In this document: positions 7,098 through 47,130 of the stretch, one piece after another
Numbering within the stretch: the first letter of the stretch is position 1
How the letters are laid out: the number at the start of each line of letters is the position of its first letter
Source of the DNA: Porticoccaceae bacterium
GTDB taxonomy: Bacteria; Pseudomonadota; Gammaproteobacteria; Pseudomonadales; Porticoccaceae
DNA: 64,000 nt
Direction of reading: 5' to 3'
Assembly (NCBI GenBank): GCA_902562425.1
Contig: CACETF010000002.1
Span: 62,001-126,000, forward strand
Made by a program: the position numbers and the translations under genes
Notes under the pieces: model-generated
Told to the model about the DNA's origin: nothing
The model's database searches: none
What the model saw: only the letters and a program-made list of their open reading frames with translations

Positions 7098-7225
7098 GAT
7101 AGATTCAATTGAATCAAGCCTTAGTGATGATTCAGTTGTTATAAAAAGAATTGGCTGCAATGACGAGCGTCCTGTAAGTGCGCATGGGATGCCAGTCGTT
7201 ATTAACTTGCGTACTGGAGAAGTTT

Positions 7226-7495
7226 ATGGCCTTAAGTGCAGAAGAAAAAGCGTTGTTGGTCAAAGAATATGGCCACGATCAGAAAGACACAGGCTCGCCA
7301 GAAGTGCAGGTTGCACTTTTAACGGCGAATATAAATAAGTTGCAGAATCATTTCGGTTCTCACAAGAAAGATCACCATTCTCGGCGTGGACTGATACGTA
7401 TGGTTAATCAACGGAGAAAGTTACTTGATTACCTTAAAACAAAAAATTTTGAGCGGTACACTGAACTTATCAAGAAACTTGGCCTGCGAAGATAG
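7226..7495 (+). CDS. rpsO: 30S ribosomal protein S15
   Basis: Primary 16S rRNA-binding protein. 89 residues, exactly the family length, with [19 protein letters not shown] and the end KKLGLRR. ATG 7226 has TGGAGA 5 bases upstream. The rpsO-pnp pair is the classical arrangement in which processing in the intergenic region controls pnp expression. Confidence 0.97.
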
Positions 7496-7552
7496 TGACT
7501 AATCGGGGGCAAACAAATTATTTTAAGGGTGATATATTCCTCAATTATACTC

Positions 7553-7582
7553 TTGAGAGCGTATAGACTACATATCTACACT
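7553..7582 (+). promoter_or_regulatory. Weak candidate promoter for pnp
   Basis: In the 169-base rpsO-pnp gap, TTGAGA (7553-7558) is followed 18 bases later by TACACT (7577-7582). Both boxes are imperfect. E. coli has a pnp promoter and an RNase III site in this gap; here I see only this candidate and a 5-bp inverted repeat (CTCAA/TTGAG, 7540-7557). Confidence 0.25.
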
Positions 7583-7664
7583 GCAGTTAATGGCGTTTTA
7601 GGATACTAACTTCCTTTTACTTATATTAAAGAACTGATTTAAAGAAATATATGAAGGCAACAAT

Positions 7665-9779
7665 ATGAATCCATTAGTAAAAAGATTTAAGTATGGTGAA
7701 TGCAACGTAACAATCGAGACAGGTCGTATAGCCAGACAAGCGACGGGTGCAGTGATATGTTCGATTGATGAGACTTCTGTGTTGTGTACGGTGGTTGGAG
7801 CAAGAGAAAAAAAAGAGGATGTCGACTTTTTCCCCTTAGGTGTTCATTATCAAGAAAAAGCCTATGCTGCTGGAAAAATTCCTGGAGGTTTCTTCAAAAG
7901 AGAGGGTCGTCCAACAGAAAAAGAAACGTTAACTTCTAGATTAATTGATAGACCTATTCGACCACTTTTTCCAGAAGGTTTTAAGAATGAAGTACAGGTG
8001 GTTTGCACGGTTCTATCAGCACAAAAAAATGCTGATCCTGATATAGCCGCAATGATAGGAACTTCTGCCGCTTTGGCGATCTCTGGCATTCCATTTAACG
8101 GGCCCATCGGTGGGGCGAGAGTAGGTTATTCGGAGGAAGAGGGCTACCTTTTAAATCCGACTAATGCTGAGTTGTTAAACTCCGAACTTGATATGGTAGT
8201 TGCTGGAACCGAGGACGCAGTTCTAATGGTAGAGTCCGAAGCGAAGGAGTTATCTGAAGACATAATGCTTGGAGCTGTTTTGTTCGCACATCAAGAGATG
8301 CAAACCGTGATTACTGTCATAAAACAGCTGGCCTCTGAAGTGGGAAAACCTCGGTGGAATTGGGAATCAGTGGGAGTGAATAAAACACTTAGAGATGCCC
8401 TCAACACGTTGTTAGCAGAGGATCTCAAGCGAGCTTACCAACTTGTTGATAAGCAACAACGTATGGACAATATCGCTAGCTTGAGGGATAAGGCGCTAAC
8501 GCAACTGAGCTCTGAAATGGGTAATGAACAAAATAATATAAAAGATGAGTTTAAAAAACTTGAGAAAAATATTGTGCGCGGTCGAATTCTTCGAGGTGAT
8601 CCTAGAATTGATGGGAGAGATAACCGAAGCGTAAGGCCCATTGGCGCTGAGGTTTCTATTTTGTCTCGTGCGCATGGTTCAGCTCTGTTTACGCGAGGCG
8701 AGACGCAGGCGCTTGTTGTAGCAACGCTAGGCTCGACTCGCGATGCCCAAATGATTGATGACCTAGATGGTCGTCGAGATGATCCATTTATGCTGCATTA
8801 TAATTTTCCCCCATATTCTGTTGGAGAATGTGGAAGAATCGGATTCACAGGTAGACGAGAAATTGGTCACGGTAGATTGGCCCGCAGAGGAATCGCGGCT
8901 GTGCTTCCGTCAATTGATGAATTTCCGTATGCGATGCGTGTTGTTTCGGAGATCACTGAATCAAATGGATCAAGTTCGATGGCATCGGTTTGCGGGGCAA
9001 GTCTTGCGCTCATGGATGCGGGGGTTCCGTTAAAAGCGCCAGTAGCAGGAATAGCGATGGGACTAGTTAAAGAAGGAGACCAATTTTCGGTGTTGACCGA
9101 TATACTTGGAGATGAAGATCATCTCGGTGATATGGATTTCAAAGTGGCTGGAACGGCTGAGGGTATTACTGCTCTTCAGATGGATATAAAAATTGAAGGT
9201 ATAACCGAGGAGATTATGGAAATTGCACTGCAGCAGGCTATGGATGCTCGTCTACATATTCTTACTTCTATGAACGCTACATTGGCTGTTGGTCGTGAGG
9301 AGGTGGCAGATTCAGCACCACGAATGGGAGCAATGCAAATAGATGCCGATAAGATTAGAGATGTTATTGGAAAGGGTGGAGCAACCATACGTAGTTTGTG
9401 TGAGGAGACTAGTTCTACCATAGACATAACCGATGACGGGGCAGTAAAAATATACGCCGATGACAGTGCGGGTCTTCAAGCCGCTATTGATGCTATTTCG
9501 GCAATCGTTGCTGAGCCCGAGCCAGGAGCAATTTATGATGGTAAAGTGGTGAGAATTGTTGACTTTGGCGCTTTCGTTAATTTCATGCCCGGCACCGATG
9601 GTCTGGTGCATATATCACAGATAGCCTCTCAAAGAGTCAACAAAGTAACAGATTATTTGGCCGAAGGACAAGAAGTGCGTGTAAAGGTCTTAGAAATTGA
9701 TAATCGCGGAAGAGTAAAGTTATCCATCAAAGAAGCCACTCTGGAGGAACAATCGCGTTCCGAGAACGCTGATGATTGA
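7665..9779 (+). CDS. pnp: Polyribonucleotide nucleotidyltransferase (PNPase)
   Basis: Phosphorolytic 3'-5' exoribonuclease of the RNA degradosome. 704 residues (E. coli 711). There are two RNase PH domains: the first has [11 protein letters not shown], and the second has the catalytic loop with [13 protein letters not shown] and [22 protein letters not shown] domain ([15 protein letters not shown]) and an S1 domain ([15 protein letters not shown]) complete the protein. ATG 7665 has GAAGG 7 bases upstream. It ends 36 bases from the convergent recN gene, with no clear terminator between them. Confidence 0.97.
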
Positions 9780-42962: not shown

Positions 42963-44258
42963 CTAGAGTTGCCTCTTTTTCAGAGCTCTAATTATAAAAC
43001 GTGCAGGATGCATAGCTATGCGTAAGTCTTTTTCTAGTGGAGAGGGTTTTCTCGCTATTTCAGCTGCAAGTATTTTTGCGCCGAGTGGGGCGTAGCCCAA
43101 GCCCCGGGATCCTAAACCGCAATGTATATAAAGGTTTGGTAAGTAAGTACCATATGTTGTGATTTGACTTTTCGCATCTTTTCTTAACTCAGAGAACGCC
43201 TCAATCATTACGGATAAATTGGGTACCGCTCCCACGATAGGAAGGTAATCTGGCGTTGTGCAGCGAAAGTCGGCCCGTCCATCAAGGTTGGCTGGACTTA
43301 AGCGGTTCACCAGCTTCTTAAGTAGTGGATCATTTGAGCTAAGTTTTTCGAGATTTTTTTTATGGTCAGAAATACAGACTTTTTGATCTTGAGATTTGCT
43401 GTAAGTCGCGCCGCAACTATGCGTCCCATTAGTGCCCGGAGTTAAATAACCTTGTCCGCATATGACAACACGGAGTCTACTACTGGCACTTGTCGCTGGG
43501 ATTTCAGTTATTTGTCCGCGCACTTTTTGCACAGGCAAAAACTGTGTTTGTGAAAAATTTAGGCACTCGTAAGAATTTGCTAGAACTAATATTGGTGTTT
43601 CAGCAAATTTATTTCCCATTGAGTCAAAGAGGTTCCATGTGTTCAGTTTTTGTCTGTACTCAATTTTTTTTATGACGGCTTTTTTCAAACTGATATTTGG
43701 ATGTTTTAATAATCTCTCACAAACTGCCACTGGGGGAAGCCAGCCCAGTAAAGGAAAATAGAGGGCACTTGGTGAGGAGAGCGCTAGTCCGCTAATTTTT
43801 TTAAGATTTCGCTTATCAAGTAGCTTAAAAAAAGTATTGCTTTGACCCAAATTTTGAAAAATCGTTTTCTGTTTTTTTGCATCATGGATGCTACTTGGCA
43901 GAATTATCACCCCACACTGCTCCCCTAAGCCAGACCGCCAAAACGATTTATAAAAGCCACTGGCATTTACCATAGCTTTATAATTTATTTGTGGTAATGG
44001 GGTACCATGAAGCGATAGCCGAGGATAAATTATTGCTTGCCTATTCCCGGACCCTCCTTGAGCGGGTTTTTCATTGCGATCAATAACCGTGACGCTGTAT
44101 CCAATATCAGCCAGCGCAGAAGCGGTCGTACAACCGGCTAATCCTGCGCCTAATATTGTCACATTTTTTTGAAGAGAACGCTTTTGTGGTTCGATGTTAT
44201 TATGCCAGCTGGAAGACAATTTATTGCTTTCTTGACGAGGTTGACTCTCCTTTTTCAT
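42963..44258 (-). CDS. Stand-alone MnmC oxidase domain (tRNA cmnm5(s2)U-demodifying FAD oxidoreductase)
   Basis: In E. coli, MnmC is bifunctional: an N-terminal methyltransferase and a C-terminal FAD oxidase that converts cmnm5U34 to nm5U34. This protein matches only the oxidase half: FAD loop VTILGAGLAGCTTASALAD, GSGNRQAIIYPRLSLHG, LPVQKVRGQITEIP, and the late GLGSRGLGYAPLGAKILAAE. The first 34 residues are polar and include SSSWHN, similar to the PW[FH] linker between the two MnmC domains. So it looks like a bifunctional ancestor that lost its first half. 431 residues; its ATG overlaps the flavodoxin stop. Confidence 0.85.
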   Translation of the reverse strand: MKKESQPRQESNKLSSSWHNNIEPQKRSLQKNVTILGAGLAGCTTASALADIGYSVTVIDRNEKPAQGGSGNRQAIIYPRLSLHGTPLPQINYKAMVNASGFYKSFWRSGLGEQCGVIILPSSIHDAKKQKTIFQNLGQSNTFFKLLDKRNLKKISGLALSSPSALYFPLLGWLPPVAVCERLLKHPNISLKKAVIKKIEYRQKLNTWNLFDSMGNKFAETPILVLANSYECLNFSQTQFLPVQKVRGQITEIPATSASSRLRVVICGQGYLTPGTNGTHSCGATYSKSQDQKVCISDHKKNLEKLSSNDPLLKKLVNRLSPANLDGRADFRCTTPDYLPIVGAVPNLSVMIEAFSELRKDAKSQITTYGTYLPNLYIHCGLGSRGLGYAPLGAKILAAEIARKPSPLEKDLRIAMHPARFIIRALKKRQL

Positions 44259-44788
44259 TTTTTTAACGAGTAATACTCTTTCAGGATTTGCTCACACCAT
44301 TTAGCAATGTTACCGTCGCAAGCATATGATTGGTTTTCGTCATCAAGTGCTAGTCCAACAAAGAAGGTCTTTTCTTCATTTAGCGCCTTTGAATCGTTGA
44401 AAACATAATCTTTATTCGGCCATGCACCTATGGTCTGTGCTCCATGTTTCTTCACTTTATGCCACAAATAACCCATTGCATCTTGAAACCAGTCGGGATA
44501 GCCGATTTGATCCCCTAAACCATAGAGCGCGATTGTTTTTCCTTTCAAGTGTATCGAATCAATATCTTCCCAATGTTTTTCCCAGTCCTCTTGCAATTCT
44601 CCATAATCCCAAGTGGGTATTCCAAAAATCATAAAATCATACTTTGACATTGAGTCAGTCTGATTAAAAGCAATATTATGAAGTGTTACGCAAGGATATC
44701 CGACGAGCATATCTATGTTGTCTCGGATTTTTTCTGCCGCCATTTCGGTATAACAAGTAGTACTTCCAAAAAAAAGCCCAATTTTCAT
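44255..44788 (-). CDS. fldB: Flavodoxin, long-chain FldB type
   Basis: FMN electron carrier. The phosphate loop FFGSTTCYTEMAAEKI and the FMN-ring segments FGIPTWDYGELQEDWE and ALYGLGDQIGYPDWFQDAMG closely follow E. coli FldB. 177 residues from ATG 44788; an ATG two codons upstream is also possible. No Shine-Dalgarno is obvious. It lies between trmL and the MnmC oxidase on one strand and overlaps the latter by four bases. Confidence 0.93.
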   Translation of the reverse strand: MKIGLFFGSTTCYTEMAAEKIRDNIDMLVGYPCVTLHNIAFNQTDSMSKYDFMIFGIPTWDYGELQEDWEKHWEDIDSIHLKGKTIALYGLGDQIGYPDWFQDAMGYLWHKVKKHGAQTIGAWPNKDYVFNDSKALNEEKTFFVGLALDDENQSYACDGNIAKWCEQILKEYYSLKK

Positions 44789-44842
44789 ATACATAGTATC
44801 ATTTACTTCTTACGCATTAAAATTTCATAATAATTTAAAGAT

Positions 44843-45310
44843 TTATATTGTACCGTTGATATAAGCCAGCTGTCGCCAAGCCTCATAAACCACAATTGCA
44901 GCGGCATTGGACAAATTCAGACTTCTACTGTCCGATATCATGGGTATTTTTAGTATATTTTCGACTCCAATTTCTTGGAAAATTTGCTCAGGAAGCCCGC
45001 GCGTTTCAGGGCCAAATAAGAGCGCATTTCCGCGTTCATAAGCTGCATCTGAAAAGCATGTTTTTCCTTTCGTTGAGAAGCCATATATTTTTTTTTCAAT
45101 ATTTAATTTTTTATATTCAGTCCAATCCGAATAAACTTTTGTCGAATAGTAATCGTTATAGTCGAGACCCGCTCGACGCAACTTTTTGCTGTCCAAATCG
45201 AACCCTAAAGGTTCGATTAAATGTAGCTTAAACCCCGTATTTCTGCATAGCCGCATTATATTGCCCGTGTTCGGGGGGATCTCTGGTTCATATAATACTA
45301 TGTCAAGCAT
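44843..45310 (-). CDS. trmL: tRNA (cytidine/uridine(34)-2'-O)-methyltransferase TrmL
   Basis: SPOUT enzyme that 2'-O-methylates the wobble base of tRNA-Leu isoacceptors. Motifs: PPNTGNIMRLCRNTG, LRRAGLDYNDY, LLFGPETRGLP and the knot end SLNLSNAAAIVVYEAWRQ. 155 residues (E. coli 157). In this window it shares an apparent operon with another wobble-position enzyme, the MnmC oxidase. Confidence 0.96.
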   Translation of the reverse strand: MLDIVLYEPEIPPNTGNIMRLCRNTGFKLHLIEPLGFDLDSKKLRRAGLDYNDYYSTKVYSDWTEYKKLNIEKKIYGFSTKGKTCFSDAAYERGNALLFGPETRGLPEQIFQEIGVENILKIPMISDSRSLNLSNAAAIVVYEAWRQLAYINGTI

Positions 45311-45804
45311 TGCTTATTTTCAGTTTTAGTATGTTTGACAATCATAACCTAATTATAGATGAATTGACTTAGAGCTTTAGCCTCGATTTTACGAGGGATA
45401 AAATTTGATTTTTTATGCTGTGGCCTGTTTCGTATGAAAGCAAATATCCCCAGAACACTCAGCATGATGTTCAAGTATCACTTAAATCTTGCTGTTCTAG
45501 GTTCTATTCGATTCATATTAGATGAACTATCGCACTTAAGTGTGAAGCCTGCTTGACTGATATTGTGCTTGGATGTATTACCTTTGTGGTTTAATTTTGA
45601 ACTCGATAGATGGATGACCTATCTAACTTAAGTGGAAAATATCGATAAATTTCCATCGATGGTTAATCAGTTGTAATCTACCCAATGATACTTAAATCCA
45701 TAATTATGACTCATGCCAGTCAGATGGATAATTTATGTGAATATATTTTTTGAGATGCCGAAAAGGCGCTATTTAAACTGTGAAAGTCTACAGGGAGATT
45801 TAAT
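45311..45804. other. 494-base gap between trmL and tilS
   Basis: The longest gap of the window. In Pseudomonas and many relatives accA lies just upstream of tilS; it is absent here. The gap holds a 40-codon ORF (45434-45556), a small CCTCG/CGAGG hairpin (45381-45396) and AT-rich sequence. I find no tRNA, no terminator with a proper T-run and no clear promoter. Confidence 0.6.
45434..45556 (+). CDS. Possible 40-residue ORF of unknown function
   Basis: ATG-started frame beginning MKANIPRTLSMMFKYHLNLA and ending SHLSVKPA. There is no Shine-Dalgarno and no similarity that I recognise. It may be chance or a remnant of a lost gene. Confidence 0.15.
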   Translation: MKANIPRTLSMMFKYHLNLAVLGSIRFILDELSHLSVKPA

Positions 45805-45807
45805 CTG
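45794..45807 (+). promoter_or_regulatory. Shine-Dalgarno and CTG start codon of tilS
   Basis: GGAG (45794-45797, within CAGGGAGA) lies 7 bases before CTG 45805. An in-frame stop (TGA 45781) lies eight codons upstream. No ATG, GTG or TTG occurs in frame between that stop and 45967, which is already past the catalytic PP-loop. Confidence 0.7.
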
Positions 45808-47130
45808 AAACTGTTCGCGCTGTTTGCTGACGTAGAAAAATATTTAAGCAAGAAAGGAAGAATACTGATTGGATACAGCGGTGGTCTAGACTCCACTGTT
45901 CTACTTACGCTTGCGTCCGAATATTTTACACCAAAAAAAGTACTCGCCGTTCATATCAACCATGGGTTGTCTCCAAATGCAGAGAATTGGCAAAGTTTTG
46001 TTGTTGCTTATTGTAAATTTTTGTCAGTTGAGTATTCGCTTCAACGCGTTGAGATAATTGAGTCGGCTAATCAGGAGGCTGTAGCTCGAGAGGCTCGTTT
46101 TGATGTTTTTTCAAAGTTGCTTAAAAAAGGAGACGCATTGCTACTTGGACATCACCTTGATGATCAGATTGAGACAGTCATATATCGTCTGCTCAGGGGC
46201 TCCGGTAGTCAGGGATTATCTGGTATTCCATTTGATCGTAAGCTCCGAGAGGGAAGACTTTTTCGGCCATTTCTGACATTAACGCGAACTTGCATACATG
46301 AAATAGCAAAAGCTAGAGGTCTGAATTGGATCGAGGATGAAACTAATAAAGAGGATCGTTTTGATAGAAATTATCTTCGTAATCGCGTCATACCTCAAAT
46401 AAGCGCGCGATGGCCTAGTTATCATAAGCGGATCAAAAAAACAATAAAGTTGAGTAAAGATGGCGAAGTGCTTGCACAATCAATATTCAAGAGTGATTTG
46501 GATAAATTAGATTTGCAAGATGAGAGAGGTGGGTTATCGATCAATTTAGAAAAGCTAAAAAATTTGGAGAGGATTCGACAAGGCAACATTATCCGTTATT
46601 TGCCAACATTACTAGGATATTCTCCGCCGAACTATAACGTACATAATGAGTTTTTTGCTTCGTTTCTGGGAGCGCGACTAGATGGATGTCCATTTTTAAA
46701 GTGTTGTGGATATCAGTATAGGAGGTTTCGTAATAAAATTTACGTGGTGCGTGAAAAACTTTACCAAGAAAAGGTCATTAAATTTCCGATAACTTGGGAT
46801 GTATCGTCTACCCTACCTCTTCCAGATGGATCATCGCTTGAAGCGGTTGAAGTTAACTCGGGAGGGTTACAATTACCCCAAACCATGAGCTTAGATATTG
46901 AGGTTAGGCGCGGAGGTGAAAAGTGCCGTCCTGCGGGGAGGGGTAGAACCCAAACACTCAAGAAATTGTTTCAAGAGTACTCACTTGAGCCATGGTGGCG
47001 AAGCCACATACCTTTGTTGTATTGCGGGGGTATGTTGGTGGCTGTTGGAGATCTTTGGATCTGTCAAGGTTGGATAGCACCCCCGGGGAAACGTGGATTG
47101 AAAATAATTTGGAAACACAACTCCGAGTAG
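45805..47130 (+). CDS. tilS: tRNA(Ile)-lysidine synthase, apparent CTG start
   Basis: Modifies C34 of tRNA-Ile(CAU) to lysidine; normally essential. The ATP-pyrophosphatase PP-loop GYSGGLDSTVLL is encoded at 45871-45906, followed by VLAVHINHGLSPNA, LLLGHHLDDQIETVIYRLLR and RNYLRNRVIPQI. The C-terminal TilS domains include GGEKCRPAGRGRTQTLKKLF. The first ordinary start codon (TTG 45967) would delete the PP-loop, so I place the start at CTG 45805, which has a well spaced GGAG. This gives 441 residues (E. coli 432). ATA, ATT or other CTG codons just downstream are less likely. A sequence error is the main alternative. Confidence 0.85.
   Translation: MKLFALFADVEKYLSKKGRILIGYSGGLDSTVLLTLASEYFTPKKVLAVHINHGLSPNAENWQSFVVAYCKFLSVEYSLQRVEIIESANQEAVAREARFDVFSKLLKKGDALLLGHHLDDQIETVIYRLLRGSGSQGLSGIPFDRKLREGRLFRPFLTLTRTCIHEIAKARGLNWIEDETNKEDRFDRNYLRNRVIPQISARWPSYHKRIKKTIKLSKDGEVLAQSIFKSDLDKLDLQDERGGLSINLEKLKNLERIRQGNIIRYLPTLLGYSPPNYNVHNEFFASFLGARLDGCPFLKCCGYQYRRFRNKIYVVREKLYQEKVIKFPITWDVSSTLPLPDGSSLEAVEVNSGGLQLPQTMSLDIEVRRGGEKCRPAGRGRTQTLKKLFQEYSLEPWWRSHIPLLYCGGMLVAVGDLWICQGWIAPPGKRGLKIIWKHNSE

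Follow-up and report, generated by a model that had tools for sequence, protein, structure and literature searches.

A probable CTG start codon of tilS in a marine Porticoccaceae genome and two related species

Identification of a CTG start codon candidate

The tilS gene of a marine Porticoccaceae MAG is most probably an intact, functional gene that is translated with fMet from the CTG codon at position 45805, its ATG and TTG start codons having apparently been lost and a strong Shine-Dalgarno (SD) sequence having been kept. No canonical start codon lies ahead of the indispensable PP-loop domain, an SD sequence with suitable spacing precedes the CTG, and this state is conserved under selection. 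All positions refer to the window, i.e., the whole analyzed stretch of DNA with a length of 64,000 nucleotides.

The tilS frame is closed upstream by an in-frame TGA codon (45781-45783), and the first ATG, GTG or TTG that follows in this frame is the TTG at 45967. An ORF beginning there comprises 387 amino acids and leaves the PP-loop motif SGGLDS outside; counted from CTG 45805, 54 codons would be discarded. This gap, including the position of the PP-loop within it, had been reported in a preliminary description of the window together with an SD sequence 7 bases before CTG 45805, and all of these coordinates could be reproduced. Since the codon set of gene callers consists of ATG, GTG and TTG, standard gene finders would clip tilS to an inactive 387-residue fragment without the active-site loop, which illustrates how, with such callers, an essential enzyme may be annotated as an inactive fragment. 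The features of the region are as follows:

45775-45804, + strand: 30-base block 5′ of the CTG, without variation among the three CTG-only species except for one N in SP293
45780-45803, + strand: possible 7-codon leader ORF in another frame (GTG AAA GTC TAC AGG GAG ATT TAA), with its stop codon 1 base before the CTG
45790-45792, + strand: ACA at the putative place of the ancestral ATG; the aligned codon is ATG in MED754, NP1052 and MED584
45793-45797, + strand: Shine-Dalgarno sequence GGGAG, separated from CTG 45805 by 7 bases
45805-45807, + strand: CTG, most likely start codon, present in six close species
45805-47130, + strand: tilS, tRNA(Ile2)-lysidine synthetase, 441 codons plus stop, read from CTG 45805
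45811-45813, + strand: CTG aligned with the TTG of the sister species; next-best start codon candidate, separated from the SD sequence by 13 bases
45877-45894, + strand: PP-loop SGGLDS, the catalytic loop of the ATP-pyrophosphatase
45967-45969, + strand: TTG, first ordinary in-frame start codon, the use of which would remove the PP-loop

Readthrough of the TGA at 45781 was rejected as an explanation, because another stop codon is located in frame at 45751 and no canonical start codon lies in between. The absence of ATG, GTG and TTG from 54 codons of the leucine-rich tilS is only mildly unlikely when taken alone (7% in a codon shuffle). It gains its meaning because the catalytic loop lies inside the gap, because mutations are visible both in the putative ancestral ATG and in a nearby TTG, and because the state is common to three species. 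A wider use of CTG starts in the genome was rejected after a scan of the stop-to-stop ORFs of the window against five relatives: in tilS alone among the conserved main genes does the conserved frame extend upstream of the first canonical codon by more than about 24 codons, and the other flags were mostly antisense or shadow ORFs.

Verification of TilS and of the need for it

In a Pfam search, the 441-codon product matched ATP_bind_3 (1.7e-52, residues 20-193), TilS_C (7.7e-24) and TilS (3.6e-4). The substrate-binding and C-terminal domains of TilS are present, with scores of 21.2 for PF09179 (cut-off 21) and 83.3 for PF11734 (cut-off 22). The NCBIfam model TIGR02432, which describes the PP-loop ATPase domain with SGGxDS, was matched with 172.2 bits (cut-off 93.6) and TIGR02433 with 47.8 (cut-off 20.2), while the score of 275.8 for the stricter equivalog NF007942 did not reach the cut-off of 606, as expected of a distant relative. 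The E. coli TilS structure 1ni5 was matched with E = 1.6e-60. The Pfam, NCBIfam and 1ni5 matches cover the whole 441-residue product, the TilS motifs and the catalytic and domain residues are all intact, and the gene encodes a real, ordinary TilS enzyme. For the 387-residue version, the ATP_bind_3 match covers the profile (182 positions) only from position 40 onward, so that the first 39 positions are gone; the PP-loop domain is complete only if translation begins upstream of 45877.

Pairwise dN/dS values over the whole frame were 0.12-0.15 for nearly all pairs of the compared species and 0.17 for the closest pair. Codons 1-54 behave in the same way; for example, 16 synonymous and 6 nonsynonymous changes were counted there between the window and MED754; nonsynonymous sites are more than three times as numerous as synonymous sites in these codons, yet the synonymous changes are well in excess. 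tilS is under purifying selection, codons 1-54 included.

Among the tRNAs of the genome, one resembles the E. coli tRNA-Ile2 (CAU), and elongator and initiator tRNA-Met are present as well. No UAU anticodon was found among the tRNAs read, which comprise all but a few of the 34 tRNA hits in this approximately 90% complete genome. In 14 genes of the window, ATA accounts for 190 of the 627 Ile codons (about 30%) and of 8224 codons counted. With tRNA-Ile2(CAU) present, tRNA-Ile(UAU) missing from the tRNAs read and AUA in frequent use, TilS is needed in this genome. That TilS is dispensable through a tRNA-Ile(UAU) was rejected, because no such tRNA is among those read. In E. coli and B. subtilis TilS is considered essential (PMC12514573).

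Comparison with related species

The closest relatives, all of them MAGs, are SP293, UBA1854, MED754, NP1052 and MED584. SP293 and UBA1854 are separate species that were separately assembled and that show 92-93% protein identity to the window. In both of them, ATG, GTG and TTG are likewise absent ahead of the PP-loop. The sister species MED754, NP1052 and MED584 encode, like E. coli, the same enzyme with the same domains and a similar length, but keep an ATG before the PP-loop, whereas the clade of the window is without a canonical start there. This ATG aligns with ACA 45790, five codons upstream of CTG 45805; at CTG 45811, two codons downstream, the same three species have TTG. Six more distant members of the genus likewise have an ATG roughly as far ahead of the PP-loop. 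At 70 other loci of relatives with a recognizable PP-loop, a canonical start is located at least 12 codons before the loop; only SP293 and UBA1854 are without such a start among the named relatives fetched, seven loci having been left out as unjudgeable.

The CTG at position 45805 is conserved in all six close species, and the neighboring Leu codons vary. An SD-like purine run stands before the CTG in each of the six, a comparison that the preliminary description had proposed, and the ordinary start codon at this position that would have spoken against CTG initiation was found in none of the close relatives. The claim that tilS starts at this CTG finds good support in the conserved CTG and strong SD sequence, in the selection on codons 1-54 and in two further, independently assembled species with the same state; it had to be amended in that the start appears to be displaced from an upstream ATG.

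The ancestral start of tilS was very probably the ATG five codons upstream, and both this ATG and the downstream TTG were lost in the lineage from which the three species with CTG alone descend. Because the in-frame ATG of the sister species sits five codons upstream, the start seems to have moved downstream and not to have arisen by mutation of an ATG to CTG in place. In the proposed course of events, the ancestor of the clade would have started at that ATG, which would then have changed to ACA, with the TTG two codons downstream of CTG 45805 changing to CTG. Initiation would have become dependent on CTG 45805, before which an SD-like purine run already lay near the right distance, and the strong SD sequence GGGAG would since have been retained, offsetting the weak start codon. 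Read in this way, tilS would be a clear-cut natural example of a displaced start codon accompanied by a strong SD sequence, in which the sister species preserve the state before the change.

Ribosome-binding site of tilS

The duplex with the anti-SD sequence before CTG 45805 was calculated at −8.2 kcal/mol with correct spacing, which is stronger than at 25 of the 26 ATG genes of the window. An SD sequence of such strength is not very rare by chance, as 2.6% of the CTG triplets on the strand reach an equally strong one and several CTGs are located nearby. In MED754, the anti-SD value is +0.1 at the ATG, i.e., there is no SD sequence, and −9.4 at the CTG, and for this reason initiation at the CTG may already take place in this species. 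The purine runs before the same CTG are AGGAG in MED754 and AGGA in NP1052 and MED584.

Among the three CTG-only species, none of the 30 columns before the CTG is variable, compared with 15 of 74 (20%) and 27 of 102 columns farther upstream. For other genes of the window, 0-9 of the 30 columns before the start vary, with a median of about 3. Against too strong a reading of the block stands gene 12280, one other gene of the window with 0 of 30 variable columns; moreover, the invariant block exceeds the needs of an SD sequence, so that something else may act there. A conserved RNA structure around the CTG was sought by folding, which gave a different structure in each species. CTG is also a Leu codon, and its conservation rests on six sequences. 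No single line among the conserved CTG, the SD sequence and the 30-base block is decisive; ribosomes would begin at 45805 and not at 45811, and the changes would have taken place in the order given above.

A further point against CTG 45805 is the weakness of CUG initiation in E. coli, where it has 0.86% of the activity of AUG (PMC11497404), which is low for an essential enzyme. By analogy with this value, the TilS product is probably scarce. Work on Shewanella argued that the level of TilS needs tight control and that an excess could convert tRNA-Met (PMC6520445). It may be speculated that a low, IF3-sensitive output is useful, since an excess of TilS could modify tRNA-Met with its CAU anticodon, and it is plausible that a CTG start would hold TilS at a low level or make it sensitive to IF3. 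It is rather unlikely that the CTG has been selected as a regulatory start, by which weak TilS synthesis would be tied to IF3 and initiator tRNA, maybe coupled to the leader, and the tRNA-Met pools would be spared.

Alternative explanations

Initiation at CTG 45805 could be reached, alongside the SD sequence, by coupled re-initiation after translation of the 7-codon leader GTG...TAA. The invariant block spans both the leader and the CTG, and MED754 has a leader of equal length with the same stop codon (TTG CAA GCC TAT GAG GAG ATT TAA); with TGA at the same place in NP1052 and MED584, a stop codon is found there in all six species. However, a stop in the leader frame follows from the sequence TTT-RA, and the peptide is not conserved between the window and MED754 (MKVYREI vs. 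MQAYEEI). As the leader GTG is also without a well-spaced SD sequence and the fixation of the leader is limited to three nearly identical sequences, coupling appears unlikely. The same leader would be joined directly to tilS by a +1 frameshift at ATT TAA. An SD-like AGGGAG is located directly before this site, an arrangement that presumably resembles the AGGGGG TAT CTT TGA of prfB in a superficial way, but the spacing is unlike that of prfB and the slip of tRNA-Ile onto UUU would leave a mismatch at the first position. With an in-frame ATG in the sister species making a shift unnecessary, this explanation is very unlikely. A start at the second CTG, 45811, would need only one transition from the TTG of the sister species, and the length of its product fits TilS too. 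Its distance of 13 bases from the SD sequence is too large for good initiation, and at usable spacing only a weaker duplex (−6.9) is formed, so that its use is quite improbable.

A dead or N-terminally truncated tilS in this clade, starting at TTG 45967, would correspond to the output of a gene caller restricted to ATG, GTG and TTG. Its product would be without the PP-loop, whereas purifying selection acts across the whole frame in three species, AUA codons are abundant and tRNA-Ile2(CAU) is the only tRNA found for them, and a search of the genome for a second tilS found none; a pseudogene or truncated enzyme was ruled out by the dN/dS values and the missing second copy, and this reading is extremely improbable. 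A sequencing or assembly error that deleted a canonical start could be suspected, since all genomes are MAGs and one N is located within the block in SP293. Such an error, which the preliminary description had named as a possible objection, was excluded by the two separately assembled species that share the state of the window and by the frame, which is intact throughout, and its probability is practically negligible.

Comparison with known non-canonical start codons

CTG starts account for approximately 0.024% of annotated bacterial genes (PMC11497404, PMC11983097). The best-proven case found is a plasmid gene, the rep gene of the IncF FIB replicon, for which mutations and an N-terminal analysis established a CTG start with a good ribosome-binding site (PMC11983097). 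Like tilS, it combines a CTG with a good ribosome-binding site, and annotations usually place its start wrongly at a canonical codon farther downstream; the CTG is thought to yield a low but sufficient expression. In contrast to this plasmid replication gene with its proven start, tilS is a chromosomal housekeeping gene with a start proposed by comparison. Here, a chromosomal and normally essential gene has lost its canonical start and very probably kept a rare one through the divergence of three species. A report of a CTG-started tilS was not found in a literature search.

The combination of a strong SD sequence with a poor start codon is a general pattern for GUG and UUG starts (PMC5622118). 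The sigR gene of Streptomyces with its GTC start (PMC5472188) is, like tilS, an example of a rare start missed by gene callers; repression of the GTC start by IF3 was shown in vivo for sigR, whereas tilS is known here from its sequence.

The infC gene of the same genome (contig C27, approximately 7196-7730, minus strand) is likewise without a canonical start and reads GGAG-TAATATTT-ATT AAA AAA GAC, a classical ATT start. Since GGAG is followed by 8 nt and ATT, the genome already holds one non-canonical start of the known IF3-controlled kind. Both infC and tilS are essential, translation-related genes with a non-canonical start after a GGAG-type SD sequence; IF3 regulates its own gene, infC, through the ATT codon (ATC in Streptomyces), whereas the likeness of tilS to infC is one of layout.

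Genomic neighborhood of tilS

Three modifiers of tRNA anticodon position 34 are clustered at 42963-47130, namely the mnmC FAD-domain protein, trmL and tilS. The cluster also contains a small gene (44255-44794), which is assumed to be flavodoxin-like, and in the close relatives matches to all four genes were found on the same contigs. The MnmC ORF (42963-44258) comprises only the C-terminal FAD oxidoreductase part (TIGR03197), with the methyltransferase half missing. The usual gammaproteobacterial neighbor upstream of tilS is accA; it is absent from 45310-45805, and tilS, which is oriented divergently from trmL, follows a long intergenic gap. Within this 494-base gap between trmL and tilS, an inverted repeat, ATCGATAAATTTCCATCGAT, was found at 45641-45660. 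It is largely conserved in the six close species, occurs in one copy in the genome and is perhaps an operator or promoter element.
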